Shown here one piece after another: positions 19,465 through 38,507 of a stretch of DNA of 46,595 nucleotides; the first letter of the stretch is position 1; each line of letters begins with the position of its first letter. The translations under genes and the position numbers were made by a program. The stretch is taken from NCBI GenBank assembly GCA_003132525.1, contig PKXZ01000016.1, positions 1 through 46,595 on the forward strand, given 5' to 3'. Origin of the DNA: Candidatus Dormiibacterota bacterium (lineage in GTDB: Bacteria; Chloroflexota; Dormibacteria; Aeolococcales; Aeolococcaceae). The notes under the pieces were generated by a model, which did no database searches, was not told the origin of the DNA, and saw only the letters and a program-made list of their open reading frames with translations.

Positions 19465-21447
19465 TCACGATCCCGGCGTGATCGTCACGTACGTCGCGAT
19501 CGCAATCCCGGTCGTGGTGGTGGCGAGGATGTCGTAGCGCGTCGCGCCCGGAGGCACGGTGGCGTCCGCGACAAAATGTCCGATCGGATCGAGCCTGCGG
19601 CTGACAAGGATCGTCGGAGTCCCGCCTGGGGGCGTCATCCCGATGGTCACCGACGCGATGTGGATCTCGCTCGTCTCGTTCGAGTTCGTGAAGAACGTGA
19701 CGTGAAACTCGTCCGCACCCGCCTTGTCAGGGTCGAGATAGACCTGAGCAAGCCAGCCGGCTTGCAGCTGGATCGAGTAGAGCGTCGGCAGGCCGGCGAA
19801 TCGTGCCGCCGTCACATACGGCGCCGGGGTGATCGTGGTCAGCTGCAGGTGCACCTCTGTGGAGCTGTCTGCGTTTTCGATGATCGCGGCGACCTCCCAG
19901 ATGCCGGCGACCGCGAGGTTGCCTCCACGAGCGGCAAACGTGCCGCTGGGCTGGCGCTTGAGCGTGAGCGTCGATTCGCCGAGCTGGGGTCTGAGCGGTT
20001 GCGTGAATTCGAGCTGGATGGAGCTGGCGTGCACGATCGCGCCGCTGTCGTAGTTGGTGACGCGGAGCGTGAATTCGTTGAAGCCCGCAGAGCCGGGCGA
20101 CACGGTGAGACGCACTTTGACCGTGGTGGCGAAGTCGCTGCCGGTCACCACGAGCTGGCTGGCTCGCACCGCGGCCGTGGACTGCGTCGACGCTAAGGGC
20201 GGCGCAACATTCACAAGAGTCGCTGCGACCAGCACCACGGCGATTCCGATGACGACTTCGGTGGACCCGGCTCTGCGCAGGCCGCGTAAGACCGTCGACG
20301 CGTGCGGCACATTGCCGTAGCGATTGACGGCCCCAAGCCCGGCAAGCACGACGAACAGCGCCACTTTGACGAGCACGAGAATCCCGAAGGCACTTCCGAA
20401 GAGCTGTCCAATCGAGCCGATCTCGATGACCGCGCGAAAGGTGCCGGTCAACGCGACGATCACGATCGCAATCCCGGCCGTTGTCGAGAAGCGGCGGACT
20501 GCGGCGCCCTTGACCTCGGACGGCGCACCGCGCACGGCGAGGATGAGCACAAGGAGTCCGCCGAGCCACACGCCGCCGGCGACGATGTGTGCCCACTGGA
20601 TCAGGAGGTTGACGGCCACCGGCGCCTGGGCGCCCGCATGGCTCGACGCAACGTCCACCCACATGGACGCTGCTGCACCGATCCCCGCCACCAGTACGCC
20701 GAGGCGCGACAGGCCACCGGCAAGGAACCAGGCGACCGCGATCGCGATGCCTGTCGCAACGATCGCGATGATGCGCTCGATCGCGGTCATCCCAAGTGAG
20801 GTCGCGAACAGTGCGCTGAACGTGATGCCCGCCGCCTCGCGCTGCGCCTCGATGATGCCGGCGACACCAAGGGCGGCGATCACCCATGCCGCCACGAGCA
20901 TGCGCTTCGTGAAACCGGGCACCGCACGCAACGCGATCAAGCACGTTGACGCGACCCCGACGATCGCCATCAAACCGATGAAGAACAGCCATCGCGCAAC
21001 GACCGCGAGGATCGATGGCGGCGGTGACACCACGGACTTTGCGGCGTGAGCGTTGGCGCTCGTGGCCGATTCACCGACGCCAAAGGCGTACGCGCCGGTT
21101 GCCAGGTGGCCGTCAATCTCGGACACCGTCTTCCACGTCACCGTGTACACACCGTTGCCGATGGGCTTGAGCGGCACCTCGAGCTCGAGGGGCAGACCGG
21201 GGACGGCCACCGTTGGGCCGGCGTCGACGCTGACCCCGGAGCTGTTGACGACCGTGATGCTGGACAGACGGGGGTCCGGTGGCTCTCCGAACGTGATCTC
21301 CACGACCTTCGGCGCCGTCTGCACCTCCGCACCCTCGGGTGGAACGGCGCTCTGCGGGAGCGCGTGTGCGGCCACCGTCAACGGCAGTCCGATCGCTGCC
21401 CCGACAGCCAGCGTGAGCGCGACGGCGAATGCCGGCCTGGCGCGCAT
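19465..21447 (-). CDS. CopC-CopD fusion (copper resistance/import type) with YtkA-like C-terminal domain
   Basis: CopC start AHALPQSAVPPEGAEVQTAPKVVEITFGEPPDPRLSSITV, then a CopD-like membrane domain, then a soluble domain. Confidence 0.85.
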   Translation of the reverse strand: MRARPAFAVALTLAVGAAIGLPLTVAAHALPQSAVPPEGAEVQTAPKVVEITFGEPPDPRLSSITVVNSSGVSVDAGPTVAVPGLPLELEVPLKPIGNGVYTVTWKTVSEIDGHLATGAYAFGVGESATSANAHAAKSVVSPPPSILAVVARWLFFIGLMAIVGVASTCLIALRAVPGFTKRMLVAAWVIAALGVAGIIEAQREAAGITFSALFATSLGMTAIERIIAIVATGIAIAVAWFLAGGLSRLGVLVAGIGAAASMWVDVASSHAGAQAPVAVNLLIQWAHIVAGGVWLGGLLVLILAVRGAPSEVKGAAVRRFSTTAGIAIVIVALTGTFRAVIEIGSIGQLFGSAFGILVLVKVALFVVLAGLGAVNRYGNVPHASTVLRGLRRAGSTEVVIGIAVVLVAATLVNVAPPLASTQSTAAVRASQLVVTGSDFATTVKVRLTVSPGSAGFNEFTLRVTNYDSGAIVHASSIQLEFTQPLRPQLGESTLTLKRQPSGTFAARGGNLAVAGIWEVAAIIENADSSTEVHLQLTTITPAPYVTAARFAGLPTLYSIQLQAGWLAQVYLDPDKAGADEFHVTFFTNSNETSEIHIASVTIGMTPPGGTPTILVSRRLDPIGHFVADATVPPGATRYDILATTTTGIAIATYVTITPGS

Positions 21448-21450
21448 GCG

Positions 21451-22179
21451 CTACGTGCTCCGGCGGCGCAACCCGATCGCCAGATTGACCGCGCTCAGCA
21501 ACACCGCAACCACGATCGCGACGATCGCGAGAACGATTGCAAGCGACTCGCGGGACTTGGCGTTGCTTGCGGCTGTGGCGGCGGATTGCGCGCTCGCGAG
21601 CGCAGTTTCCGCGCGCTGATTCACGGCATCGACCTTGGTCGCGATGGCAGCGACCGCGGGCACCGCAACGGGAAACTCGACAGCGCTGGAATCAGCGACC
21701 GAATCGAACGTCGCCGGCCCTGACGTCACCGTCTTATCGATCGGTGTCCCGTTGATGCTGCCGAAGATGTGGAAGGTATACGCGCCTACCACAGTTGGGA
21801 TCAACGCGTAGTCGTACTCGTCGAGCCGGCCGTTGCCGGTGTCGGAATCGTACGCGGGTGCCGGGCAGAACGGGCTGCTCGTCGTGGTCCCGACAGTTAC
21901 CGTGACCTGGAAGTCGGGATGTGTGCAATCCTGGTTGAGGGTGCTCACCGGCGTGCCTTTCGGATTGTTCGCCGAGGCGATGTCGATGAACACCTGGATC
22001 GCGTTCTCTTCGCCGACGAACGTGTCGGTGCCGGATGCCGGCTCGCTCTGCCATCCGATGGCAACCCGATATTCACCGGCCGTGAAAACGTAGTGCGCTG
22101 ATGCGACGGCGACGGACGTCGCCAGTGCCATGAGCATGCCCGCGACGACGGCGCATGCACGAAGGCTGAGCTTCCACAC
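21451..22179 (-). CDS. Secreted, C-terminally membrane-anchored protein of unknown function in the copper block
   Basis: GTG start VWKLSLRACAVVAGMLMALATSVAVASAHYVFTAGEYRVAIGW; C-terminal TM helix SLAIVLAIVAIVVAVLLSAVNLAIGLRRR. Confidence 0.65.
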   Translation of the reverse strand: MWKLSLRACAVVAGMLMALATSVAVASAHYVFTAGEYRVAIGWQSEPASGTDTFVGEENAIQVFIDIASANNPKGTPVSTLNQDCTHPDFQVTVTVGTTTSSPFCPAPAYDSDTGNGRLDEYDYALIPTVVGAYTFHIFGSINGTPIDKTVTSGPATFDSVADSSAVEFPVAVPAVAAIATKVDAVNQRAETALASAQSAATAASNAKSRESLAIVLAIVAIVVAVLLSAVNLAIGLRRRST

Positions 22180-22235
22180 GTGATATCTCCTCGTTGATGA
22201 GCGATCGAAGGTGAGCCGAAGCTCACGGACGCCGA

Positions 22236-22997
22236 TCAGACAGCGAGAAGCGGCGGCGGTGGCCTTCGCCAGAGGTGCCGTCCAATCCGCTCGAGGGGCG
22301 AGACTGAGCGGGCTACCGGCAAACGGAGGACAGCGGCGGCGGTGCGGCAGCGCCCGACGATGGCTCGCAGCAGTGCCTCGACGCGTTCGACTACCACCTC
22401 GCGCCGGTGCAGCAGCACCTGGCAGATGCGGACGATACCGGCGAGCAGCAGCGATACATAGAGGTGCACGAGCGGCGCCGCCCAGTGGACCCCGGTGATC
22501 GCACCGAGCCCCGGCGCGCGCTGGGACGTCGCAAGCGCTTCGACGTTCTCCTGGACAACGTACAGGGTGATCTGCGCCGCCGCCAATGGCAGCCAGATCG
22601 CGAGCAGCCGCGTTCCCGGATTCGACCGTATGGGTCGCGCGGCGGGGGCATGCGCCGAGCGCCCGCGCCAGATGCGACGCACACCTGCGCCGGCCCGGTC
22701 GAGGCGGTCGTTCAGCGCCTGCCATGCCCGCGCCAGGCGGAAGGCGAAGACGGCACTCAGCACCAGGAGCACTGCGGCGACGGGGAGCATGTACACGTGC
22801 GCCGGATTGGTCATCGACGCAACGACACCGGCGGATCCCCACACCCTGAGGTACTCGAGCGTATGGCCGATAAAGAGCCCAACGAGCGCCAGAAGCACGC
22901 TGCCTGGCGCGGCAAACCGCATACGCCGGTTGGGGATCACGCGGGGAGCATACGCTCGCCAACCACGCAGGTCCCAGGCGCGGGTCGGGCGAGGCAT
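22236..22997 (-). CDS. Membrane protein of unknown function
   Basis: Four or so hydrophobic segments (VLLALVGLFIGHTLEYL, VYMLPVAAVLLVLSAVFAF). The start is uncertain; the ORF opens at 23084. Confidence 0.6.
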   Translation of the reverse strand: MPRPTRAWDLRGWRAYAPRVIPNRRMRFAAPGSVLLALVGLFIGHTLEYLRVWGSAGVVASMTNPAHVYMLPVAAVLLVLSAVFAFRLARAWQALNDRLDRAGAGVRRIWRGRSAHAPAARPIRSNPGTRLLAIWLPLAAAQITLYVVQENVEALATSQRAPGLGAITGVHWAAPLVHLYVSLLLAGIVRICQVLLHRREVVVERVEALLRAIVGRCRTAAAVLRLPVARSVSPLERIGRHLWRRPPPPLLAV

Positions 22998-23074
22998 AAT
23001 TGGCGCCGCGCTGGCCGCGACCCTCGCTGGCGGGAGGATCAGACCGTCAAACCGGGCGCGAACGAGGTCTGTGG

Positions 23075-23731
23075 ATGAAACCATCGGGGAGCCTCGGAGG
23101 GATCACTCGGTCCAAGCGCGGGCAGGCGCTGATCGTGGTGCTGGCACTCGCGGGCGGCCTCGGCATCGGCGCTCTGATGTCGGTCGCGATGCATCAGCGG
23201 GCATCGACAACCGCAGCCCAGGTAAGCCTCACGCCTTCGTCGAACGTGATCGGCGCCCCGCTGACGCGCCAGACGACTCCCCCTCTGACCGGGCTCGTCG
23301 ACCAGAACGGCCAGACAGTTTCGCTTGCGGATGAGAAGGGCCATGTGGTCCTCCTGGCGTTCATGGACCCGCTCTGCGTCAACCTCTGCCCGATCCTCGG
23401 TCGTGACATCGTCGCCGTCGAGCAGGCGCTCCCCAAGACGATCAAGCCGGTCCTGCTGATCGTGAGCGTGATGCCCGACCGCACCGCCGCCGATGTGAAG
23501 GACTTCATCAAGACGAACCTCACGACCCAGTGGGATCCCGGCTGGCACTGGCTGCTCGGCCCCGACGCGTCCCTCAAGATCACGTGGCTGCAATGGGGGG
23601 AGCCGCTCGAGCCGCCAAAGACGAACTACCTCGATGTCATTGACCCGCAGGGATACGTGCGCGTCGTGTACCCCGCGCCGCTCTTCGTCAGTGACGTCGT
23701 CCACGCCATCACCGTGGTGTCGACCGAGTAG
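23075..23731 (+). CDS. SCO1/SenC-like copper chaperone/thioredoxin-fold protein
   Basis: TM anchor, FMDPLCVNLCPILGRDIVAVEQAL (CxxxCP motif) and WHWLLGPDASL. Confidence 0.85.
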   Translation: MKPSGSLGGITRSKRGQALIVVLALAGGLGIGALMSVAMHQRASTTAAQVSLTPSSNVIGAPLTRQTTPPLTGLVDQNGQTVSLADEKGHVVLLAFMDPLCVNLCPILGRDIVAVEQALPKTIKPVLLIVSVMPDRTAADVKDFIKTNLTTQWDPGWHWLLGPDASLKITWLQWGEPLEPPKTNYLDVIDPQGYVRVVYPAPLFVSDVVHAITVVSTE

Positions 23732-23767
23732 CACCGCGGTGCCCGAGACCGCAATCGCGAGGCGTGG

Positions 23768-23797
23768 TTGAGAAGAAGCCAGCTTTTGCGCTAAGGT
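23768..23797 (+). promoter_or_regulatory. Candidate sigma-70-like promoter for the Mo regulator/modABC operon
   Basis: TTGAGA (23768-23773), 18 bp, TAAGGT (23792-23797); the predicted transcription start is at about the ATG (23806). Confidence 0.35.
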
Positions 23798-23805
23798 CGC
23801 GGCTC

Positions 23806-24222
23806 ATGCCGACGTACAAGATGGGTCAGGCCGCGGAGCTGCTCGGCGTCAGCGTGGACACGGTTCGACGCTGGGCCGACGCCGGCCGCATCGAGACGCT
23901 TCGCACCGAGGGCAGACACCGCCTGCTTGACGGTGCCGCGCTCGCACGATTCGCTGTCGAGCTGGCGAGCAATCAGCCGGCCCTGCCGGTGACTGAGTCC
24001 GCACGCAATCACTTCCGAGGACTGGTCACGGATGTCACGACCGACGGGGTGATGGCCCACGTCAAGCTCCAGGCCGGACCATTCCGGATCAGCTCGCTGA
24101 TCAGTAGCGAGGCGGTCGCTGAGCTCGGGCTGGAGCCGGGCATGCTCGCGGTCGCCTCCGTCAAGGCCACAAACGTGGTCATCGAGATGCCTCCATCCTC
24201 AGACACACAGGCGAGGAAGTGA
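23806..24222 (+). CDS. HTH (MerR/excisionase-type) plus TOBE molybdate-binding domain regulator
   Basis: MPTYKMGQAAELLGVSVDTVRRWADAGRIETLRTEGRHRLLD, then a Mop/TOBE-like FRGLVTDVTTDGVMAHVKLQAGPFRISSLISSEAVAELGLEPGMLAVASVKATNVVIE. Confidence 0.88.
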   Translation: MPTYKMGQAAELLGVSVDTVRRWADAGRIETLRTEGRHRLLDGAALARFAVELASNQPALPVTESARNHFRGLVTDVTTDGVMAHVKLQAGPFRISSLISSEAVAELGLEPGMLAVASVKATNVVIEMPPSSDTQARK

Positions 24223-25010
24223 TGCAGCTCCGTTTCCGCCCCGTGATGATCACTGCCACCGCGGCTCTGGCACTTGCCGCATGTGGCAGCTCGAGCACGC
24301 CGGCCGCGTCATCGTCACCCGATCCGTTCAGCGGGAACCTGACCGTGTTTGCCGCGTCGTCGCTGACCAACGCGTTCAACACGGCGGAGAAGGGCCTGGA
24401 GGTGGACAACCCAGGCTTCACGGGGACGTACTCGTTCGCCGGCTCGCAGGACCTCGTGACCGAGATCATCAGCGGTGCCCCGGCCGACGTCATCGCGACA
24501 GCCAACACCGACACCATGGCGCAGCTCACCGCCAAGGGGCTGGTCGAGACGCCTCAGGCCTTCTGCCAGAACAAGCTCGAGATCGCCGTCGCGCCGGGCA
24601 ACCCCTTGAACATTAAAACGCTCGCCGACCTCAACAACCCTGGGGTCAAGCTGGTGATCGGGGATCCGAGCGTGCCGGTCGGTGAGTACGTCACGGACAT
24701 CGAAGCATCGGACACGCTGACATTCCATCCTGTATCGCTGCAGCTCAGCGATGCGGCCGTGCTCGAGCAACTCGAGTCGGGCGATGCGAATGCGGCGCTC
24801 GTGTTCGTCACCGACGTGATCGGCGCGCCCGGCAAGGTGACCGGCGTGCCCATCCCGGACGCGCAGAACAAGATCGGGACCTACGAGATCGCCGCCATCA
24901 AGGCGAGCAGCAACCTGGGCGCCGCAGAGGCGTTCGTGACCTCTGCTGTCTCCGGCGATATCCAGTCCATCCTGCTATCGGCTGGATTCCTGCCGCCACC
25001 GAAGTCGTGA
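24222..25010 (+). CDS. modA: Molybdate ABC transporter substrate-binding protein
   Basis: Lipobox LAACGSSS; LTVFAASSLTNAFNTA...YSFAGSQDLVTEIISGAPADVIATA. Confidence 0.93.
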   Translation: MQLRFRPVMITATAALALAACGSSSTPAASSSPDPFSGNLTVFAASSLTNAFNTAEKGLEVDNPGFTGTYSFAGSQDLVTEIISGAPADVIATANTDTMAQLTAKGLVETPQAFCQNKLEIAVAPGNPLNIKTLADLNNPGVKLVIGDPSVPVGEYVTDIEASDTLTFHPVSLQLSDAAVLEQLESGDANAALVFVTDVIGAPGKVTGVPIPDAQNKIGTYEIAAIKASSNLGAAEAFVTSAVSGDIQSILLSAGFLPPPKS

Positions 25011-25807
25011 CCAGGGGCGTCACGCGACGCCCGCTGATCGGTCTCGTCATCCCGGCGGCGGTGGCCGTTCTGTTCATCGCACTACCGCTGGTGGGACTCC
25101 TCGCCCACGTCGACTGGAGCAACCTCCCGTCGGAGCTCGTGTCGACGGACGTGCTCACCGCTCTCCGGCTCTCGCTCGAGTGCTCGGCCATCGCCGTGGT
25201 GATCGCGCTCGTCATTGGGGTACCCCTCGCCTATCTACTCGCGCGCACTTCGTTGCCAGGACGCCGGGTCTTTCGCGGACTGGTAACCCTCCCCCTGGTG
25301 CTGCCGCCCGTGGTCGGTGGCATCGCGCTGCAGACGGCGTTCGGCACCACCACCCCGATCGGCACCGTGCTCCAGCACCTCGGGATCGTTCTTCCGTTCA
25401 GCACCGCCGGCGCCGCGATTGCCGAGGCCTTCGTCGGATTCCCCTTCCTGGTGATCACCGTCGAGGCGGGCCTGCGCCAGCGCGACGATCACCTCGAGGA
25501 GGTGGCCGCGACCCTCGGGGCTCGACCGTGGCGAAGGTTCTGGCAGGTGACGATGCCACTGGCGGCGCCGTCCATCGCCGCCGGAGCCGCGCTCTGCTGG
25601 GCTCGAGCACTTGGCGAATTCGGCGCCACGATCACGTTTGCCGGGAGCTTCCCCGGTACCACCGAGACGCTGCCGATCGCCGCGTACAGCTCATTCGAGG
25701 GCTCGGGTCAGGTCGGTGAGGCGATCACGCTGTCACTGCTCCTCCTTGCGATCTCGATCCTGGTGCTCGTCGTGCTGCGCGACCGCTGGCTCGGAGCACT
25801 CCGTTGA
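25007..25807 (+). CDS. modB: Molybdate ABC transporter permease
   Basis: Permease with EEVAATLGARPWRRFWQVTMPLAAPSIAAGAALCWARALGEFGATITFAG. Confidence 0.94.
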   Translation: MTRGVTRRPLIGLVIPAAVAVLFIALPLVGLLAHVDWSNLPSELVSTDVLTALRLSLECSAIAVVIALVIGVPLAYLLARTSLPGRRVFRGLVTLPLVLPPVVGGIALQTAFGTTTPIGTVLQHLGIVLPFSTAGAAIAEAFVGFPFLVITVEAGLRQRDDHLEEVAATLGARPWRRFWQVTMPLAAPSIAAGAALCWARALGEFGATITFAGSFPGTTETLPIAAYSSFEGSGQVGEAITLSLLLLAISILVLVVLRDRWLGALR

Positions 25808-26856
25808 CCCTGCATGCGCGCGTGCAAACGCAGCTCGGCAGCCTGCACCTCGACTGCGACGTCAGTGTGGATTCCAACGTCACCGTCGCCGTCCTCGGAC
25901 CGAACGGCGCCGGCAAGACAACGTTGCTGCGCGTCATCGCCGGCCTGGCACCGGTGGCCACGGGACGGGTGGAGGTCGACGGCGTCGTGTTCGAGGACAC
26001 CGAGAGCAGAGCGTGGCTGGCGCCCGAAGCCCGACGGGTCGGCTTCGTGTTCCAGGATCACGGTTTGTTCCCGCACCTCAGCGTCCTCGACAACGTCGCA
26101 TTCGGCCTGCGCGCACGCGGCATGAACCGCGACACTGCAGCGACGAAGGCTCACGAGTGGCTGGAGCGAGTCGACCTCGGGAGATACGCCAATTCACGCC
26201 CGAGTGCTCTCAGCGGCGGCCAATCGCAACGCGCCGCGCTCGCGCGCGTCCTGGTCACCGACCCACAGGCACTCCTCCTTGACGAACCGCTTGCCGCCGT
26301 CGATGCGTCCGGCCGGCTCGAGTTGCGTCGCGCGCTGCGCGAGCACCTGGCTACCTTCAGCGGGGTCCGGCTACTGGTCACCCACGATCCCCTCGAGGCG
26401 GCCTCACTGGCCGAGCGGGTGATCGTCCTCGAGGAAGGGCATGTGACCCAGGAGGGGCTCTTCAGCGAGGTGTCCGCGCGGCCTCGATCGGCATGGATCG
26501 CGCGCATGGCCGGGCTGAACCTGCTCCGCGGTGCGGTGTCCGGTGATCAGATTCGGCTCGAGGATGGGTCGTCGCTCACCGTGGCAACCGACGTGGCTGG
26601 ACCCGCGCTGGCGACCATCCAGCCGCGAGCGGTCGCGCTCTACCGCCAGGCTCCAGAAGGCAGTCCCCGCAATGTGGTGCGTTGCAAGGTCGCTGGTGTC
26701 GATCCCGAGGGTGACCGCTGGCGCATCCGGCTCGACGGGCCGTTTCCCCTCGTAGCAGAGGTGACACCGGCCGCGGCGGCGGAGCTGCGGCTTGCCGACG
26801 GCGGAGAGGTGTTGGCGGTCGTCAAGGCGACGGAGATCGACGTCTATTCCATGTGA
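25804..26856 (+). CDS. modC: Molybdate ABC transporter ATP-binding protein with C-terminal TOBE domain
   Basis: GPNGAGKTT, LSGGQSQRAALARVL, LLLDEPLAAVD; C-terminal Mop-like domain. Confidence 0.93.
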   Translation: MTLHARVQTQLGSLHLDCDVSVDSNVTVAVLGPNGAGKTTLLRVIAGLAPVATGRVEVDGVVFEDTESRAWLAPEARRVGFVFQDHGLFPHLSVLDNVAFGLRARGMNRDTAATKAHEWLERVDLGRYANSRPSALSGGQSQRAALARVLVTDPQALLLDEPLAAVDASGRLELRRALREHLATFSGVRLLVTHDPLEAASLAERVIVLEEGHVTQEGLFSEVSARPRSAWIARMAGLNLLRGAVSGDQIRLEDGSSLTVATDVAGPALATIQPRAVALYRQAPEGSPRNVVRCKVAGVDPEGDRWRIRLDGPFPLVAEVTPAAAAELRLADGGEVLAVVKATEIDVYSM

Positions 26857-26891: not shown

Positions 26892-26930
26892 GGCTTGACC
26901 GCAGTGCGGCGAACTCGTCAGGCTGACCAT

Positions 26931-27824
26931 ATGAACGCCCCGACCGATGCCGCGCAGCCCGCTTCGGTCGACGCGGTCGTCGAACTCCTCGCCGCCCAGG
27001 ACTACCTGTGCGACCGGCGCTTGGCAACGGCGATTCTCGTCTCGATGCGCATCAGCAAGCCACTCTTCCTCGAAGGCGAAGCCGGGGTTGGCAAGACTGA
27101 GGCTGCGCGAGCGCTCGCCGCCGGTCTGGGCGCACGACTCATCCGGTTGCAGTGCTACGAGGGCATCGACCTGGCCCACGCCGCTTATGAGTGGAATTAC
27201 GCGCGCCAGCTGCTGCATATCCGCCTCGTCGGCGAGAGCGAAGACCGCGCCCGCGCCGAGCAGGACATCTTCGGCCCCGACTTCCTGCTGCGGCGCCCGC
27301 TGCTCGATGCCATCGACAACCACGACCCAGTCGCGCCGGTGCTGCTCATCGATGAGATCGACAGGTCCGACGAGGAGTTCGAGGCATTCCTGCTCGAGAT
27401 CCTCGCCGACTACGCGATCAGCATCCCCGAATTGGGCACGATCCGCGCGACCCGTCCGCCCCTGGTGATCCTCACGGGTAACCGCACGCGCGAGGTGCAC
27501 GACGCGCTCAAGCGCCGCTGTCTCTACCACTGGATCGACTATCCGGACCTCGAGCGAGAGGTCGCGATCGTCCGCGTTCGCGCACCCGAAGTCTCCGAGC
27601 GTCTCGGCCGCCAGGTCGCGGAGGTGACCCAGCGACTCCGAGGTCTCGACCTCTACAAAGTGCCAGGGGTGGCAGAAACAGTCGACTGGGCGCGGGCACT
27701 CGCAGCCCTCGGCCACAGCGAGGCGACGCCCGCGGCGCTGCGCGAGACCATGGGTGCGGCGATCAAGCACCAGGAAGATCTCCAGCGAAGCGAGGAGGCG
27801 ATCACGGAGCACGCCGGACGATGA
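26931..27824 (+). CDS. coxD: MoxR-family AAA+ ATPase, CoxD-like (CODH maturation)
   Basis: PLFLEGEAGVGKTEAARALA Walker A; PVLLIDEIDRSDEEFEAFLLEIL Walker B; overlaps the coxE-like gene. Confidence 0.9.
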   Translation: MNAPTDAAQPASVDAVVELLAAQDYLCDRRLATAILVSMRISKPLFLEGEAGVGKTEAARALAAGLGARLIRLQCYEGIDLAHAAYEWNYARQLLHIRLVGESEDRARAEQDIFGPDFLLRRPLLDAIDNHDPVAPVLLIDEIDRSDEEFEAFLLEILADYAISIPELGTIRATRPPLVILTGNRTREVHDALKRRCLYHWIDYPDLEREVAIVRVRAPEVSERLGRQVAEVTQRLRGLDLYKVPGVAETVDWARALAALGHSEATPAALRETMGAAIKHQEDLQRSEEAITEHAGR

Positions 27825-29032
27825 TCGGCAACACACCGGATCCTGTCGAGAGCGTGACGCTCTTCGCGCGCCTCCTGCGCGATGCCGGGTTCACCACCGG
27901 GCCCGAGCGCGTGCGCGACGCGTGCGAAGCGCTACTGGCAATCGACCTGGCGCACACGGACGAGGTCCGCTACGCGCTTCGAGCTGTGTTCGTGACCCGG
28001 CGCGAGGAGGGCCCGGTGTTCGACGCGGCCTTCGATCTGTTTTTCTCGACACCGGGTGGCGAAGGCAGGGCCGGTTCCATCCCCGGGCGCAGCCGTCCCC
28101 TGGCACTCGACCCCAAACAGGCGCTGGCATGGATGAACGCCCTCGGACTGCCGTCAACCGGCCCTGCCCGGGAGGTCGAGGGGCCGTCCGCGTCGAGCGC
28201 CGGTTACAGCGCCGAGGAGTTGCTGCGTCAGCGCGACTTTCGCGAGATGACGTGGGAGGAGCTCGCGGCGGTCCGCCGGCTGCTCGGTCAGTCCCCGTGG
28301 AGGGTCGCCGAGCGCAGGACCCGGCGCTTGCGTGCCGATCGTCGAGGCACGATTCAGCTGCGCCGCACCATGCGGGCCGCCGCGCGCCAGGGAGGGGATG
28401 CCCACCGGCTCGCACGCGCGAGCGTGCGCACCAAGCGCCGTCCAATCGTCATCCTCTGCGATGTCAGCGGTTCGATGGATCGCTACTCACGTCAACTGTT
28501 GGTCTTCGCGCACGTGATCGGCAGGCGCGAGCGTGTCGAGACCTTCGCGTTTTCGACGAACTTGACGAGAATCACACACCTGCTGCGTCACGGCGACGTT
28601 GATTCGGCGCTCGACCACGTGGCAAGCCAGGTGCATGACATCGGCGGGGGAACCCGCATCGCCGATGCGCTGCATGTCTTCCAACGTGACCACGCACGCC
28701 GGGTGCTCGGTCATGGCGCCGTCGTGCTGATCATCAGCGATGGATGGGACCGTGGCGATCCCGATGAGCTCGGCCGGGAGATGGCCCGCCTGCGCAGGAG
28801 CTGCCATCGCTTGATCTGGCTCAACCCGCTGCTCGGCAGCAGCGCGTATCAGCCGGAGACGCGCGGCATGGCTGCTGCCCTCCCCTATTGCGACGATTTC
28901 CTGAGCGCCCACAGCGTCGACGCTCTCGACGCACTCGGAAGGCTGCTCGCTCAGCTCCCTCGACGGGTCAGCCGTTCGCCTCACGGCGCCGCCGCCGGGA
29001 TCGCCGCACCCGGCGCAACAGCAGCAGGCTGA
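27821..29032 (+). CDS. coxE: VWA-domain protein, CoxE-like
   Basis: MIDAS-like IVILCDVSGSMDRYSRQLLVFAH; ATGA overlap with the coxD-like gene. Confidence 0.9.
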   Translation: MIGNTPDPVESVTLFARLLRDAGFTTGPERVRDACEALLAIDLAHTDEVRYALRAVFVTRREEGPVFDAAFDLFFSTPGGEGRAGSIPGRSRPLALDPKQALAWMNALGLPSTGPAREVEGPSASSAGYSAEELLRQRDFREMTWEELAAVRRLLGQSPWRVAERRTRRLRADRRGTIQLRRTMRAAARQGGDAHRLARASVRTKRRPIVILCDVSGSMDRYSRQLLVFAHVIGRRERVETFAFSTNLTRITHLLRHGDVDSALDHVASQVHDIGGGTRIADALHVFQRDHARRVLGHGAVVLIISDGWDRGDPDELGREMARLRRSCHRLIWLNPLLGSSAYQPETRGMAAALPYCDDFLSAHSVDALDALGRLLAQLPRRVSRSPHGAAAGIAAPGATAAG

Positions 29033-29731: not shown

Positions 29732-29761
29732 CGTCCGGCCGTGGAAGGGGATACTCATGTG

Positions 29762-30838
29762 ATGCGGGATCTGCTGCCGACGCTGCATGAATGGAGTGAG
29801 GGTGACCCCCTGGTTGCAGTCGCGACCGTTGTTGGCACGTCGGGTTCGACGCCGCGGCCCATGGGCGCTCGGCTCCTGGTCAGCAGGGACGGTCGCATGG
29901 CCGGTTCGGTGAGCGGTGGTTGCCTCGAGTCCGCCGTGGTTCTTGAGGCCCAGGCGACCATCGCCGGCGACGCCCCACCTCGCCTGCTCCACTACGGCAT
30001 CAGCGATGAGATGGGCTGGGCAGTCGGCCTGTCGTGTGGTGGCGAGGTCGACATCTTCGTCGAGACCCTGGACAGCGACGGATCGGATCCGGTCATCGAG
30101 GAGGTGCGACGTGCCATCGAGACCTCACGACCGGTGGCGCTCCTCACCGCCCTGGATGGCGATCAGGCCGGCCATCGCGCCGCGGCCACCGCCGACGGCG
30201 GCCTGGTCGGCAGCCTGGGCGGGTCGTCGACCGTGGCCGAAGTGGTTGTAGCGGCTCGCAGCAGGATCGCGTCCGGCCTCCCAGGTGTCGAGGAGATATC
30301 CGGGATGCGCATCTTCATCGATCCGATCGTCCCCTCACCGCAGCTGGTGGTCATTGGAGCGGTGCACATCGCGATCGCGCTCACCACCATGGCTCGGGCC
30401 GCGGGATTCACGGTGTCGGTGGTCGACCCGCGCACTGCCTTCAACAACGTCGAACGTATCCCGGACGCCGAACGACTGGTGACCGCGTGGCCGGACGAGG
30501 CCCTGCCCCACTTCGACCTGGGACCACGTGACGCGGCGGTGTGTCTCGCCCACGATCCAAAGTTCGAGGACCCGGCTTTGACCGCCCTGCTTCGCACCGA
30601 GACCGGCTACATCGGCGCGATCGGGAGTCGCGGCACCCATGCCAAACGCGTCGTGCGACTCCGCGAGGCAGGGTTCAGCGATACGGACATCGCGCGCATC
30701 CACAGCCCAGTCGGGCTCAACCTCGGTGCGGCCACGCCCGAGGAGATCGCCATCGCCATCCTTGCCGAGATCGTGGCCGTGCGGCGCGGCCGCGACGCAG
30801 GATCGCTATCCGCTGTTCCAGCAGCGCCCGTCGGGTGA
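29762..30838 (+). CDS. XdhC/CoxI family protein
   Basis: ATVVGTSGSTPRPMGARLLVSRDGRMAGSVSGGCLESAVV; C-terminal HSPVGLNLGAATPEEIAIAILAEIVAVRRGR. Confidence 0.92.
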   Translation: MRDLLPTLHEWSEGDPLVAVATVVGTSGSTPRPMGARLLVSRDGRMAGSVSGGCLESAVVLEAQATIAGDAPPRLLHYGISDEMGWAVGLSCGGEVDIFVETLDSDGSDPVIEEVRRAIETSRPVALLTALDGDQAGHRAAATADGGLVGSLGGSSTVAEVVVAARSRIASGLPGVEEISGMRIFIDPIVPSPQLVVIGAVHIAIALTTMARAAGFTVSVVDPRTAFNNVERIPDAERLVTAWPDEALPHFDLGPRDAAVCLAHDPKFEDPALTALLRTETGYIGAIGSRGTHAKRVVRLREAGFSDTDIARIHSPVGLNLGAATPEEIAIAILAEIVAVRRGRDAGSLSAVPAAPVG

Positions 30839-31890
30839 GGCTGGAGGTCCTCCTCGGCTCGGCGGTCGACGGACCCTCATCGCAGTGGGTCGGCGCCGTC
30901 CTCTGCCGCGACGTCCTCGACCGGAACAAGCACCCCGTTCTGCTCAAGGGAACCGTGCTCTCGGCTACACACGAGCAGCAGTTGCGCAAAGCCCATCCCG
31001 ACGAGCTGCACGTCCTCTGGCTCGACGAAGGCGACGTCGGCGAGGATGCGGCCGCGATTCGGATCGCAGCCGCGGTCGCCGGTCCCGGGACATTCGCCCG
31101 GCCGCCGGTGGAGTCACAGGCGCGCCTGGTCGCCGCGTGGCGAGGAATGGTCGCCGTCGACGTCAGGGCGCTCGGGGCGGTGAACGCGGTAGATGGGGTG
31201 ACCGTGTTCACGGTGCCCGACGCGCTCCATGTCGATGCAGGAAGGACGCTCGCCGGCGTCAAGATCACCCCGCTCGCAATCTCCGAGTGGTCACTCGAAC
31301 AGGCGGAGCGCGCCGCGCTGTCCGCCGAGGGCGGCGGCGGAGTCCTCAGCGTCCGGCCTTTCCTGCCGCTGCGCGTGGCTGCAATCGTGCGCCAGCACCT
31401 CACCGACGAGGCTCGAGCCCGTTTCGAGCACTCGCTCGGGATGCGCAGCGCCTGGTTCGGCGGCACCATCGAGCCGGTCCGCTACATCGACGACAGCGCT
31501 GATGCGGTCCGCGAGGCGCTTGTCGATGCCGCCGGGTCGGCAGACATCGTGCTGGCAGTCGGTGTTGCGTCCGTCGATCCACTCGACGTCACCTGGCAGA
31601 GCCTCCTGGCGGCGGGCGCGACCTCGATCCGGCGTGGCCTGCCGATGCATCCGGGCAGCAGCTACTGGATCGCCGAGTTGCTCGACCGCCCGGTCATCGG
31701 CGTAGCTTCATGCGGCATGTTCTCGCGCCGGAGCGCGCTCGATCTGCTGATCGCGCGGCTCCACGCGGGCCTGCCGCTGGACTCGGCATACCTGTCGTCG
31801 CTGGGCCACGGTGGCCTGCTCGGCAAGGAGGCCGCCTGGCGGATCCCTCCTTACGAGGCCGCCCTCGGCCACGACACCGACGAGGACTGA
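30835..31890 (+). CDS. Molybdopterin-binding (MoCF/MoeA-like C-terminal domain) protein, degenerate motifs
   Basis: GTG start overlapping the xdhC stop. IVLAVGVASVDPLDVTWQSLLAAGATSIRRGLPMHPGSSYWIAELLDRPVIGVASCGMFSRRSALDLL. Confidence 0.75.
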   Translation: MRLEVLLGSAVDGPSSQWVGAVLCRDVLDRNKHPVLLKGTVLSATHEQQLRKAHPDELHVLWLDEGDVGEDAAAIRIAAAVAGPGTFARPPVESQARLVAAWRGMVAVDVRALGAVNAVDGVTVFTVPDALHVDAGRTLAGVKITPLAISEWSLEQAERAALSAEGGGGVLSVRPFLPLRVAAIVRQHLTDEARARFEHSLGMRSAWFGGTIEPVRYIDDSADAVREALVDAAGSADIVLAVGVASVDPLDVTWQSLLAAGATSIRRGLPMHPGSSYWIAELLDRPVIGVASCGMFSRRSALDLLIARLHAGLPLDSAYLSSLGHGGLLGKEAAWRIPPYEAALGHDTDED

Positions 31891-33137
31891 ACCTCCCCCG
31901 ACCGCGCCCGGAAGTCGTACGCAACGCGGCCGTCCCTGACCACAAGGCGGATGTGACCGGGGTCCGCGAGGGTGTCGATGTCCGCCAGCGGGTCGCCGCG
32001 AACCGCGACCACGTCGGCGAGCTTGCCGGCAGCGAGGGTTCCGAGGTCGGAGCGGCGAAGCAGCTCGGCCGGCACACGCGTCGAGGCCTCGATTGCCTGC
32101 ATCGGGGTCATCCCGCAGCGAACCATCTCGCCAAGCTCCCGGAGGTTCTTTCCATGCGGCCCCACCGCCGCGTCGGTGCCCATCGCGATCTTCACGCCGG
32201 ATGCAATCGCGGCTGAGACGGCCGCTCGATGCAGCGAACGGATCCGTTCGGCCTTCGCGATCATCTCCGGCGGGAGGCCGCCGCTGGTCCTGGCTCCTTC
32301 GATCACATCGCCCGGCGCAACCAGCGTGGGTACCAGGTACGCGCCCTTCTCCTTCATGAGCGCGATGGCCTCCTCGTCGAGGAGGCATCCGTGCTCGATG
32401 CTCGTGACCCCGGCGAGGAGTGCGTTGCGAATCCCCGCCGGTGACATGGCGTGAGCCATGACACGCTTGCCGACAACGGCGGCTTCCTCCACGGCGGTTC
32501 GGATCTCATCGATCGAGAACTGCGCGTGGTCGGGGAGATCGCCGGCGCTGAGCACGCCGCCGCTCGTGCAGAGCTTGATCCAGTCCGCGCCGGCCTGAAG
32601 CACCTGGCGAACCTTGCGGCGCATGTCGTCGACCCCGTCGACGACGCCGTGGGGCACGTCGACATTCATGGTCATCCCGAGGCGCGCGCCGCACGGCATC
32701 AGGTCGTCACCGTGGCCGCCGGTCTGGCTCAGCAGGCTGATCGCCAGCTCCATTCGCGGCGCCGGGAAATACCCGGCCTCGGCGGCGAGGCGGACGCCCA
32801 CCGGGGTATGGCCGGCGTCGCGGACTGTCGTGACCCCCGCCGCGAGGGTGCGCGCGCTGTTGGGGATCGAATTGAGCAGCGCCAGCGACGCCGGGGTCAT
32901 CAGGATGCGCACGAGGTTGGTGCCCGACGACGCCAAGTGGACGTGCATGTCCATGAACCCCGGAAGCAGCGTGAGATCGTCGTCCTCGAGCACCTCTGCG
33001 TCCGCGGGAATCGTCAACGACGAACGCTCGCCCGCGGCCATGATCTCACCGTCCTCGATGACCACGGCGGCGCGCTCCAGCGGGTCGCGCCCGGTACCGT
33101 CGATGAGTCGCTCGGCGACGATGACGAGTGCTGGCAC
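31851..33137 (-). CDS. Amidohydrolase family protein (imidazolonepropionase/prolidase-like)
   Basis: LLPGFMDMHVHLASSG; VVGKRVMAHAMSPAGIRNALLAGVTSIEHGCLLDEEAIALM; GTDAAVGPHG. Confidence 0.9.
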   Translation of the reverse strand: MPALVIVAERLIDGTGRDPLERAAVVIEDGEIMAAGERSSLTIPADAEVLEDDDLTLLPGFMDMHVHLASSGTNLVRILMTPASLALLNSIPNSARTLAAGVTTVRDAGHTPVGVRLAAEAGYFPAPRMELAISLLSQTGGHGDDLMPCGARLGMTMNVDVPHGVVDGVDDMRRKVRQVLQAGADWIKLCTSGGVLSAGDLPDHAQFSIDEIRTAVEEAAVVGKRVMAHAMSPAGIRNALLAGVTSIEHGCLLDEEAIALMKEKGAYLVPTLVAPGDVIEGARTSGGLPPEMIAKAERIRSLHRAAVSAAIASGVKIAMGTDAAVGPHGKNLRELGEMVRCGMTPMQAIEASTRVPAELLRRSDLGTLAAGKLADVVAVRGDPLADIDTLADPGHIRLVVRDGRVAYDFRARSGEVQSSSVSWPRAAS

Positions 33138-33788: not shown

Positions 33789-34759
33789 TCAGCCCGCGGT
33801 GGCTCGGAGGAACCGCGCCGGTTCTGTGGCGAATTGCTCGCGGCATCCCGAGCAGCAGAAGAAGTAGGTCTCGCCGTCATGGGTGGCGGTATGCGACGCG
33901 TCCTTGGTGTCGACAGTCATCGCACACACCGGATCGACGGCGAATGCCGCAAGCGAGGCCGGCGCCGGCACGGGGTTCGCAGTCCTGCGTTCGTGCCGCA
34001 GGGCCACCAGCTCCGCGAGCGCATGGAGCGCGATCTCCTCCTGCGCCCCCGCGCGCCGTGCTCCGGCCGGAGCACGCACCCGAGCACGCTGCTCGTCTGG
34101 CATCCCTCGGTCTCGGAGGGTGTCCAGGACGGCGGCGGAGCGGCGCTCGCTTGCAACGAGCGCAACGTCGGCATCCGCAAGGGTCAGTGCCGCCTCCAGG
34201 CCATCGTCGTCGTAATGCCCCATGGTCGCGACCACAACCCAGCAGTCCTTCTCCCCGGCAAACGCTCCGAGGTCCAGGCTGTTGAGCACACGATCCGCAC
34301 CCGGAAAGTCATCGATGGATGCACCGGGATGGACGCCGCAGGTGCGGAAACCAACGACCCGGCCGAGCTGGATGAGTGTCCGCGCAGCCGGGCTCTCGCC
34401 GATCACCACGAGCAGGGGCTTGGGGAGATGCGGGTCGATGAAGATGTCGAGCGTCCCGCCGCTCGGGCACGTCGTGGCCACAGTGAGCTCACCTCCGTTG
34501 CGGGTCTCGCCCGTGTCGGTGTCCGGACGGATGCGCACCAGCCTGGGCAAGCCATCACTCATCGCGACGAGCGCTTCGCGGCGGACGAGCGCGTCCGAGC
34601 AGCTGCCGCCGATCCATCCGTGCAGCTCGCCGTCGGCGGTGATCACGGCCTTGTCGCCGGGATGCGCCGACGTCGGCGACTCCGTGCGAACCACGGTTGC
34701 GAGTGCGCACGGACGCCCCGACGCGGCGTTCTCGGCGAGCAGGTTCACCAGTCGGTCGT

Positions 34760-37146
<2,387 letters not shown>

Positions 37147-37147
<1 letters not shown>

Positions 37148-37632
37148 CACGCTACTCCTGCGGTATTCTCGGCGGCGTTTGCGGCCGCGGCGTGCTGGAT
37201 CGCCTTGACGATGTTCATGTAGCCGGTACATCTGCAAATGTTGCCGCTGATACCCCAGCGAATCTCGTCCTCGGTGGGATGCGGGTTGGCTTCGATGAGC
37301 GCTTTTCCGACCAGCATCATGCCGGGGGTGCAGAAGCCGCACTGCAGCCCGTGTTCCGCGTGGAACCCCACCTGGATCGCGTCGAGCTTGCCGCCCGCGG
37401 CCAGACCTTCGACTGTGGTGACCTTCTTGCCGTCGAGCATCGGCGCGAGCAACGTGCAGGACTTGACCGGCCGGCCGTCGAGCAACACCGTGCAGGCGCC
37501 GCAGTTGCTGGTGTCGCACCCGATGTGCGTCCCGGTCATCCCCAACTTCGTGCGGATGAGATCGACGACGAGCGTACGCGGCTCGACGTCGACGCTTTTC
37601 TCAGTTCCATTGATCTCGAACGTCACCTTCAT
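37147..37632 (-). CDS. coxS: Aerobic carbon monoxide dehydrogenase small subunit (2Fe-2S)
   Basis: GCDTSNCGACTVLLDGRPVKSCT; LQCGFCTPGMM; GNICRCTGYMNIVKAI. Confidence 0.96.
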
Positions 37633-38507
37633 GCCGCTGCTCCCTGGGCGCGATTGATCGCGGTGTGCAGGCCACGCTGCACGAAGACCCGTGCAACGTC
37701 GCGCTTGTACTCCGCACTCCCCCGGATGTCTGCCTTCGGCTCGGCTGCCTCACCCGCCAGCCGGGCCGCCTCCGCGATCACCGCATCCGTCGGCTCCTGT
37801 CCGGCGAGCGCGGCCTCAGCGGCCGTCGCTTTGATGCTGTGCGCACCGACGGCGCACAGGCCGATGCCCGCAGTTGCGATGCGGCCGTCATCACCGAGCA
37901 CAACGTGGACAGCGGCCGCCACGCTGGCAAAATCGCCGACCTTGCGTTCCAGCTTGAGATAGGTCCCTCCGGAGCGACCCGAGCCGACCGGGATCCGTAT
38001 CTCAGTCATTACCTCGTCGGCGTGCAGACCGGTGGTGAAGGGGCCTTCGAAAAAGCCGGCGGCCGGCAGCACGCGCTCGCCGCCCGCGGACTTGACGACG
38101 AACTCTGCACCAACCGCGAGCATCACCGCGCCCCAGTCACCGGCGGGATCCGCATGACAAACGGAACCGCCGACGGTTCCCATGTTACGGATGAGCGGAT
38201 CGGAGATGAGCGGCGCCGCGTCGAGAAGAACGTCGAGCGTCCCGCGCAGTTCAGTAGCACTCTCGACATCACGATGGCGAGTACGTGCGCCAATCCGCAC
38301 ATGCCCGTTTTCTCTACGAATTCCCTCGAGTCCCTCGACCCTTCCTATATCAACGACAATGACCGGAGCCGCAAATCGTAGTTTCAGTAAAGGTATCAGG
38401 CTCTGCCCTCCGGCGAGCACCTTCGCATCGTCACCGTGCTGACCCAAGAGGCTGAGCACCTCGTCAAGCGCCCCCGGCGCGATGTAGTCGAACGCGGCAG
38501 GGAACAT
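37629..38507 (-). CDS. coxM: Aerobic carbon monoxide dehydrogenase medium subunit (FAD-binding)
   Basis: MFPAAFDYIAPGALDEVLSLLGQHGDDAKVLAGGQSLIPLLKLR; NMGTVGGSVCHADPAGDW. Confidence 0.95.
   Translation of the reverse strand: MFPAAFDYIAPGALDEVLSLLGQHGDDAKVLAGGQSLIPLLKLRFAAPVIVVDIGRVEGLEGIRRENGHVRIGARTRHRDVESATELRGTLDVLLDAAPLISDPLIRNMGTVGGSVCHADPAGDWGAVMLAVGAEFVVKSAGGERVLPAAGFFEGPFTTGLHADEVMTEIRIPVGSGRSGGTYLKLERKVGDFASVAAAVHVVLGDDGRIATAGIGLCAVGAHSIKATAAEAALAGQEPTDAVIAEAARLAGEAAEPKADIRGSAEYKRDVARVFVQRGLHTAINRAQGAAA

Follow-up and report, generated by a model that had tools for sequence, protein, structure and literature searches.

The window analysed here, a stretch of 46,595 nucleotides that makes up one whole contig (PKXZ01000016.1; G000:C63) of an incomplete Candidatus Dormiibacterota genome, holds a putative copper-handling block on one side of a molybdate regulator and transporter, and the genes of an aerobic carbon monoxide (CO) dehydrogenase (CODH) on the other. 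The structural genes of the enzyme lie on the minus strand as coxL for the large subunit (34760-37147), coxS for the small Fe-S subunit (37147-37632) and coxM for the medium flavin adenine dinucleotide subunit (37629-38507), the last being placed by conserved order. CoxL carries AYRCSFR, so the enzyme is a form I CODH, as a sequence-only reading of the window had held, and the complete set by which a form I aerobic CO dehydrogenase is recognized (an AYxCSFR CoxL with coxM and coxS) is present. This coxL is the single MoCoBD_1 gene found in the incomplete genome. Downstream of coxL on the same strand, at 33789-34796, lies an orthologue of CoxF with a C-terminal YHS domain (CoxF-YHS). Its possible part in supplying copper to CODH, and that of the copper block, are the subjects of this report.

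The YHS domain of CoxF-YHS covers residues 287-332 and scores 39.5 bits in Pfam against a cut-off of 30.3, with the one Asp and three Cys proposed as copper ligands present as D288, C291, C314 and C318. These four residues are invariant in 43 aligned CoxF-YHS sequences, as are two Cys of the XdhC part, C66 and C110; it should be mentioned that the scan pattern itself required DPxCGM, so that the invariance of D288 and C291 is overstated. The remainder of the protein has both the XdhC_CoxI and XdhC_C domains. Its identity as CoxF is indicated by its position in a form I cluster and by a tree in which the YHS-XdhC proteins group with the CoxF of Afipia carboxidovorans and Aestuarium (support 100/100). 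The second XdhC protein of the window, at 29738-30838 on the plus strand and without a YHS domain, groups with CoxI in the same tree, also with support of 100/100. The structure model of CoxF-YHS has a predicted local distance difference test (pLDDT) score of 90.8 and an XdhC fold. All significant matches in the fold search were XdhC proteins, with no solved relative found for the YHS part.

The YHS domain closely accompanies form I enzymes. Within the class, it is encoded ≤2 kb downstream of 25 of the 29 form I coxL genes and of none of the 52 other large subunits (p=4.5e-17, a linkage value that ignores kinship among genomes). Three of the four form I misses are contig ends, and in the fourth (G044) the YHS domain lies behind a frame break. 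A wider scan, in which each species was represented by a single genome, yielded 80 XdhC-YHS loci. They belong to Acidobacteriota, Armatimonadota, Chloroflexi/Thermomicrobiota, Actinomycetota, Gemmatimonadota, Eremiobacterota, Gammaproteobacteria, Thermoplasmata archaea and others. An AYxCSFR coxL is present at 59 of the 80, usually as the next gene upstream, and 8 further loci have a coxL fragment or a variant motif; the rest are mostly short contigs or have other cox genes. The CoxF proteins of Thermomicrobium, Natronorubrum, Paraburkholderia and Caballeronia have the YHS domain, that of Deinococcus has a degenerate one and that of Nonomuraea has none. CO oxidation has been demonstrated for Thermomicrobium roseum (PMC6776052). 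Its YHS-CoxF gene adjoins coxL in the structural cluster, and no copper cassette is found nearby.

The sequence-only reading had described the copper block as a CopC-CopD fusion, a secreted anchored protein, a membrane protein and a SCO1-like protein, immediately upstream of the molybdenum regulator and modABC and abutting the CODH island. Gene content and order are as described, and the block does adjoin the regulator and modABC; however, coxL is ~11 kb away and the structural genes are not adjacent. The CopC-CopD fusion (19465-21447, minus strand; 660 residues) matches CopC at 65 bits and CopD at 63 bits in Pfam, and inspection finds CopC-type residues in HALPQ past the signal peptide and in DGH. 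With both domains and the predicted copper residues present, it can be placed in the CopC-CopD family, while it stays below the NCBIfam equivalog cut-offs for CopC and CopD. In relatives, the gene behind copCD encodes a small lipoprotein (L096 3081-3530, L100 11381-11812, L101 5731-6165), which is absent at this place in the window; the one in G020 has no Pfam family above the cut-offs. The secreted protein with a C-terminal transmembrane anchor (21451-22182, minus strand; GTG start, ribosome-binding site aggag) consists of a beta-rich domain, a coiled coil and a transmembrane helix, and its gene adjoins copCD in relatives as well. Its single-sequence model is of low confidence (pLDDT 65). The best matches of this model in the fold search, to YEATS, had expectation values (E) of ~0.05 and none was significant, and the matches to FetP were weak; with such a model and such matches, no function is drawn for the protein. 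The multi-pass membrane protein (GHTLEYLRVWG...; ~22236-22998, minus strand) is a conserved member of the cassette, also at sites without cox genes. Neither the secreted nor the membrane protein has a Pfam or NCBIfam family above the cut-offs. The SCO-like gene (23075-23731, plus strand) is divergent from the other three and runs in the same direction as the regulator and modABC. The region from which the membrane and SCO genes diverge contains, at 22975-23020, a conserved ATAATTGGCGCCGCGCT, which is a possible operator or promoter.

The SCO1-like label of the fourth protein is less secure than the rest of the block. Its match to SCO1-SenC in Pfam is marginal (24.1 bits against a cut-off of 22.8) and covers the N-terminal half only, and its best solved relative is Blr1131 (4wbj, E=0.003). 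The CxxxCP motif of the thioredoxin fold is present as DPLCVNLCP. The downstream His that serves as the third copper ligand in SCO1/SenC is lost, being replaced by a lysine in the window and in five sister genomes; among the seven genomes of the genus, only G005 has a histidine at this position (EPPHTNYLEVIDPQG). Other SCO proteins of the relatives keep the copper-ligand His in nearly all cases, for example LHSTVLYLVDKSG. The SCO-like protein is 79-92% identical within the genus. It should be labelled a copper chaperone only on further evidence. It might be a thiol-disulfide reductase instead, a reading that we regard as slightly less probable than its contrary. The retained CxxxC, the His to Lys replacement in six of the seven genomes and the resemblance of the G020 homologue to AhpC-TSA/Redoxin would fit such a function, whereas the histidine of G005 does not, and copper could be ligated by another residue.

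All seven genomes of the genus, that of the window included, share the gene order copCD-secreted-membrane / SCO-regulator-modABC-coxD-coxE ... YHS-XdhC-coxL-coxS-coxM, with one sister locus cut by a contig end and identical as far as the contig goes. The shared order indicates that the adjacency is neither chance nor an assembly artefact, and the concern that it might occur in this genome alone is removed. The synteny of copC/D-sco with form I coxL that the sequence-only reading had put forward for a survey was, among the genomes sampled, seen only in these seven. The relatives sampled from the class outside the genus have no copC, copD or sco homologues near form I coxL. With the window proteins and more typical CopCD/SCO proteins as queries, none were found in the 80 XdhC-YHS loci from many phyla (0/80, up to 10 kb on each side), and copCD/SCO homologues were likewise absent from 14 plasmid form I clusters (0/14). 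Form I coxL occurs in 56 of the 251 genomes of the phylum. Among the matches listed, which reach E ~1e-16 for CopC, CopC lies ≤20 kb from it only in the two genomes that were sampled from the genus. Cassette and enzyme also occur apart. G013 and G014 have the membrane-secreted-copCD cassette and no coxL in the genome, G003 has a second copy of it on C5 without cox genes, and G020 carries copCD together with the genes of the secreted, membrane and SCO proteins on C115, away from its cox genes on C66. Conversely, G056 and G060 have a form I coxL (AYRCSFR, 82-83% identical) and no CopC or SCO1 matches. The contigs of the sister genus (G007) are too short to judge adjacency. The copper cassette is real, conserved in the genus and ordinary in content, and it is not tied to CODH.

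The regulator next to the SCO-like gene (23806-24222, plus strand; assigned by Pfam and NCBIfam) is of the molybdate-responsive kind, with a BldC/MerR-type helix-turn-helix and a TOBE (Mop) domain. A promoter-like TTGAGA-N18-TAAGGT is located at 23764-23797 (plus strand, limits approximate), ~8 nucleotides before the ATG of the regulator. In the alignment of the genus it is kept in all seven genomes as TTGAG(A/G)-N18-TAA(A/G/T)GT, in G006 despite an insertion of ~100 nucleotides behind SCO. The element, which is a consensus reading of aligned sequence and not a mapped start, suggests that the regulator has its own promoter and a leaderless transcript separate from that of SCO. The genes modA, modB and modC of a molybdate ATP-binding cassette transporter follow at 24219-26856 (plus strand), modA matching TIGR01256 at 82 bits and modB and modC being assigned by open reading frame content and conserved order. 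Further along the plus strand are coxD (MoxR AAA+) and coxE (VWA_CoxE, 209 bits) at 26895-29032. The cox island also contains an amidohydrolase gene (Xaa-Pro dipeptidase-like) at 31851-33137, with 85-94% identity across the genus.

Considering these observations together, we propose that the cassette handles copper in the envelope independently and is not dedicated to CODH, and that the copper step of CODH is more likely carried out by CoxF-YHS; we regard this as the probable explanation, short of a firm one. CopCD with its secreted anchored partner, its membrane partner and sometimes the SCO-like protein would form an envelope copper cassette of its own, which would serve general copper homeostasis or uptake and whose position beside the cox/mod island would have arisen in a single genus. 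CODH would receive its copper in the cytoplasm through the CoxF orthologue at 33789-34796. An Asp and three Cys of the C-terminal YHS domain would act as the copper ligands of this protein, and from there the metal would be handed to the sulfurated Mo site once the apoenzyme has folded, a step in which CoxD and CoxE would assist. We infer that the YHS domain binds Cu(I) and transfers it. The adenylyl cyclase of Mycobacterium phlei responds to copper through a YHS domain, for which an Asp and three Cys have been proposed as ligands (PMC4626032). An insertion mutant of Afipia coxF (coxF::km) makes CODH without copper (PMC4240915). The same mutant is also without CoxE protein (PMC4240915), so that the effects of CoxF and CoxE are not separated. 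No paper joining YHS with CoxF, or the YHS domain with carbon monoxide dehydrogenase, was found in a search that covered few of the subscription journals. The suggestion drawn earlier from the adjacency, namely that the locus supplies both metals, may still be correct for the island, but through CoxF-YHS rather than through the genus-restricted copper block.

A broader proposal is more tentative, and we would put it a little below an even chance: XdhC plus YHS would be the usual form of CoxF in bacteria and archaea, with YHS as a general copper-delivery module for the form I Mo-S-Cu site that was lost in the alphaproteobacterial line. If this is true, the domain would have been overlooked, since that line supplies the only genetic model. 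Several points count against the account of cassette and CoxF-YHS given above. The YHS domain is absent from eight of eight alphaproteobacterial plasmid CoxFs, Afipia included (those of Roseivivax and Pseudosulfitobacter being scored by their annotated length, 259 residues), and YHS is therefore no general requirement of form I CODH. The domain has a weak sequence match to a phenol hydroxylase subunit, and YHS domains may bind other metals. Within the phylum, a larger share of the genomes with form I than of the others has CopC (44/56 against 95/195; p=6.4e-5, without correction for kinship or lifestyle). Given this enrichment, and as CopCD could import copper into the cytoplasm, the cassette might help CODH in this genus. 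The preselection of DPxCGM and the kinship among genomes noted above belong on the same side.

Were the YHS domain of CoxF to bind zinc or to be structural only, copper would reach CoxF via the XdhC part. Afipia CoxF, an alphaproteobacterial CoxF without YHS, is nevertheless needed for copper (PMC4240915), and the copper site proposed for it at M107CPSHGTM, in a paper that does not mention YHS (PMC4240915), overlaps the conserved C110-x-S-x-G segment. We consider this unlikely nonetheless, as the Asp and three Cys match those of a copper-responsive YHS domain (PMC4626032) and the domain is linked in the class exclusively to the copper-containing form I and not to other family members. It is quite improbable, in our view, that the CopCD/SCO cassette provides the copper of the Mo-S-Cu site, by importing or preparing it, with the locus as a two-metal supply unit. 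CopCD fusions can import copper, as known from YcnJ of B. subtilis, and the gene order kept throughout the genus, the conserved SCO gene co-directional with the regulator and the enrichment of CopC would all be in keeping with such a unit. However, the adjacency was not seen in the other lineages sampled, the cassette is known from genomes that lack CODH, as is CODH from genomes that lack CopC/SCO, and the regulator has a separate promoter-like element. Moreover, the proteins of the cassette belong to the envelope, and it is in the cytoplasm that CODH is matured, as a folded apoenzyme (PMC4240915). A more credible alternative, although not one that we expect to hold, is that the cassette mainly supports cytochrome c oxidase (CuA/CuB) or other cuproenzymes of the envelope, its place beside cox being due to chance or to joint starvation regulation. 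Heme-copper oxidase genes are present in this genome, and other SCO genes are found near COX1 on the same contig in G011, G027, G043, G050, G052 and G057, with the copper-ligand His kept in those COX1-near SCO proteins that were read. In this genome, however, COX1 is on other contigs, and the cassette-linked SCO is without that His. Two COX1 genes, on G000:C98 and G000:C100, are apparently split by frame breaks, perhaps assembly errors.

Knowledge of the copper route to the unique Mo-S-Cu site rests on one model bacterium, and CO dehydrogenase is a main biological sink of atmospheric CO. If copper is commonly carried by a YHS domain of CoxF, the copper step could be tested through the deletion or mutation of ~45 residues in any CO oxidiser that is tractable, and the heterologous expression of CODH would profit from YHS-CoxF as an accessory. 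The result also corrects a tempting inference drawn from the adjacency of copper genes.

We have compared the proteins of the window to those of known systems. The CopCD protein resembles the fused CopC-CopD of B. subtilis, YcnJ, in being a single chain with CopC-type His/Asp/His, and differs from CopC-CopD copper proteins in its linkage to family-less secreted and membrane proteins. The SCO-like protein shares the thioredoxin fold and CxxxCP with SCO1/SenC proteins (BsSco, 1xzo; Blr1131, 4wbj); unlike these, it has a lysine in place of the copper-ligand His in six of the seven genomes. The CoxF of Afipia (Oligotropha) carboxidovorans belongs to the same XdhC clade as CoxF-YHS and has the same neighbourhood of form I coxL, coxD and coxE. 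However, it has 280 residues and ends at the XdhC domain, whereas the CoxF of the window has the added C-terminal YHS. The YHS domain of the M. phlei adenylyl cyclase is likewise a small C-terminal domain with one Asp and three Cys as the proposed ligands (PMC4626032); in that protein it is a sensor on a cyclase, whereas in the window it is fused to a molybdoenzyme maturation factor.

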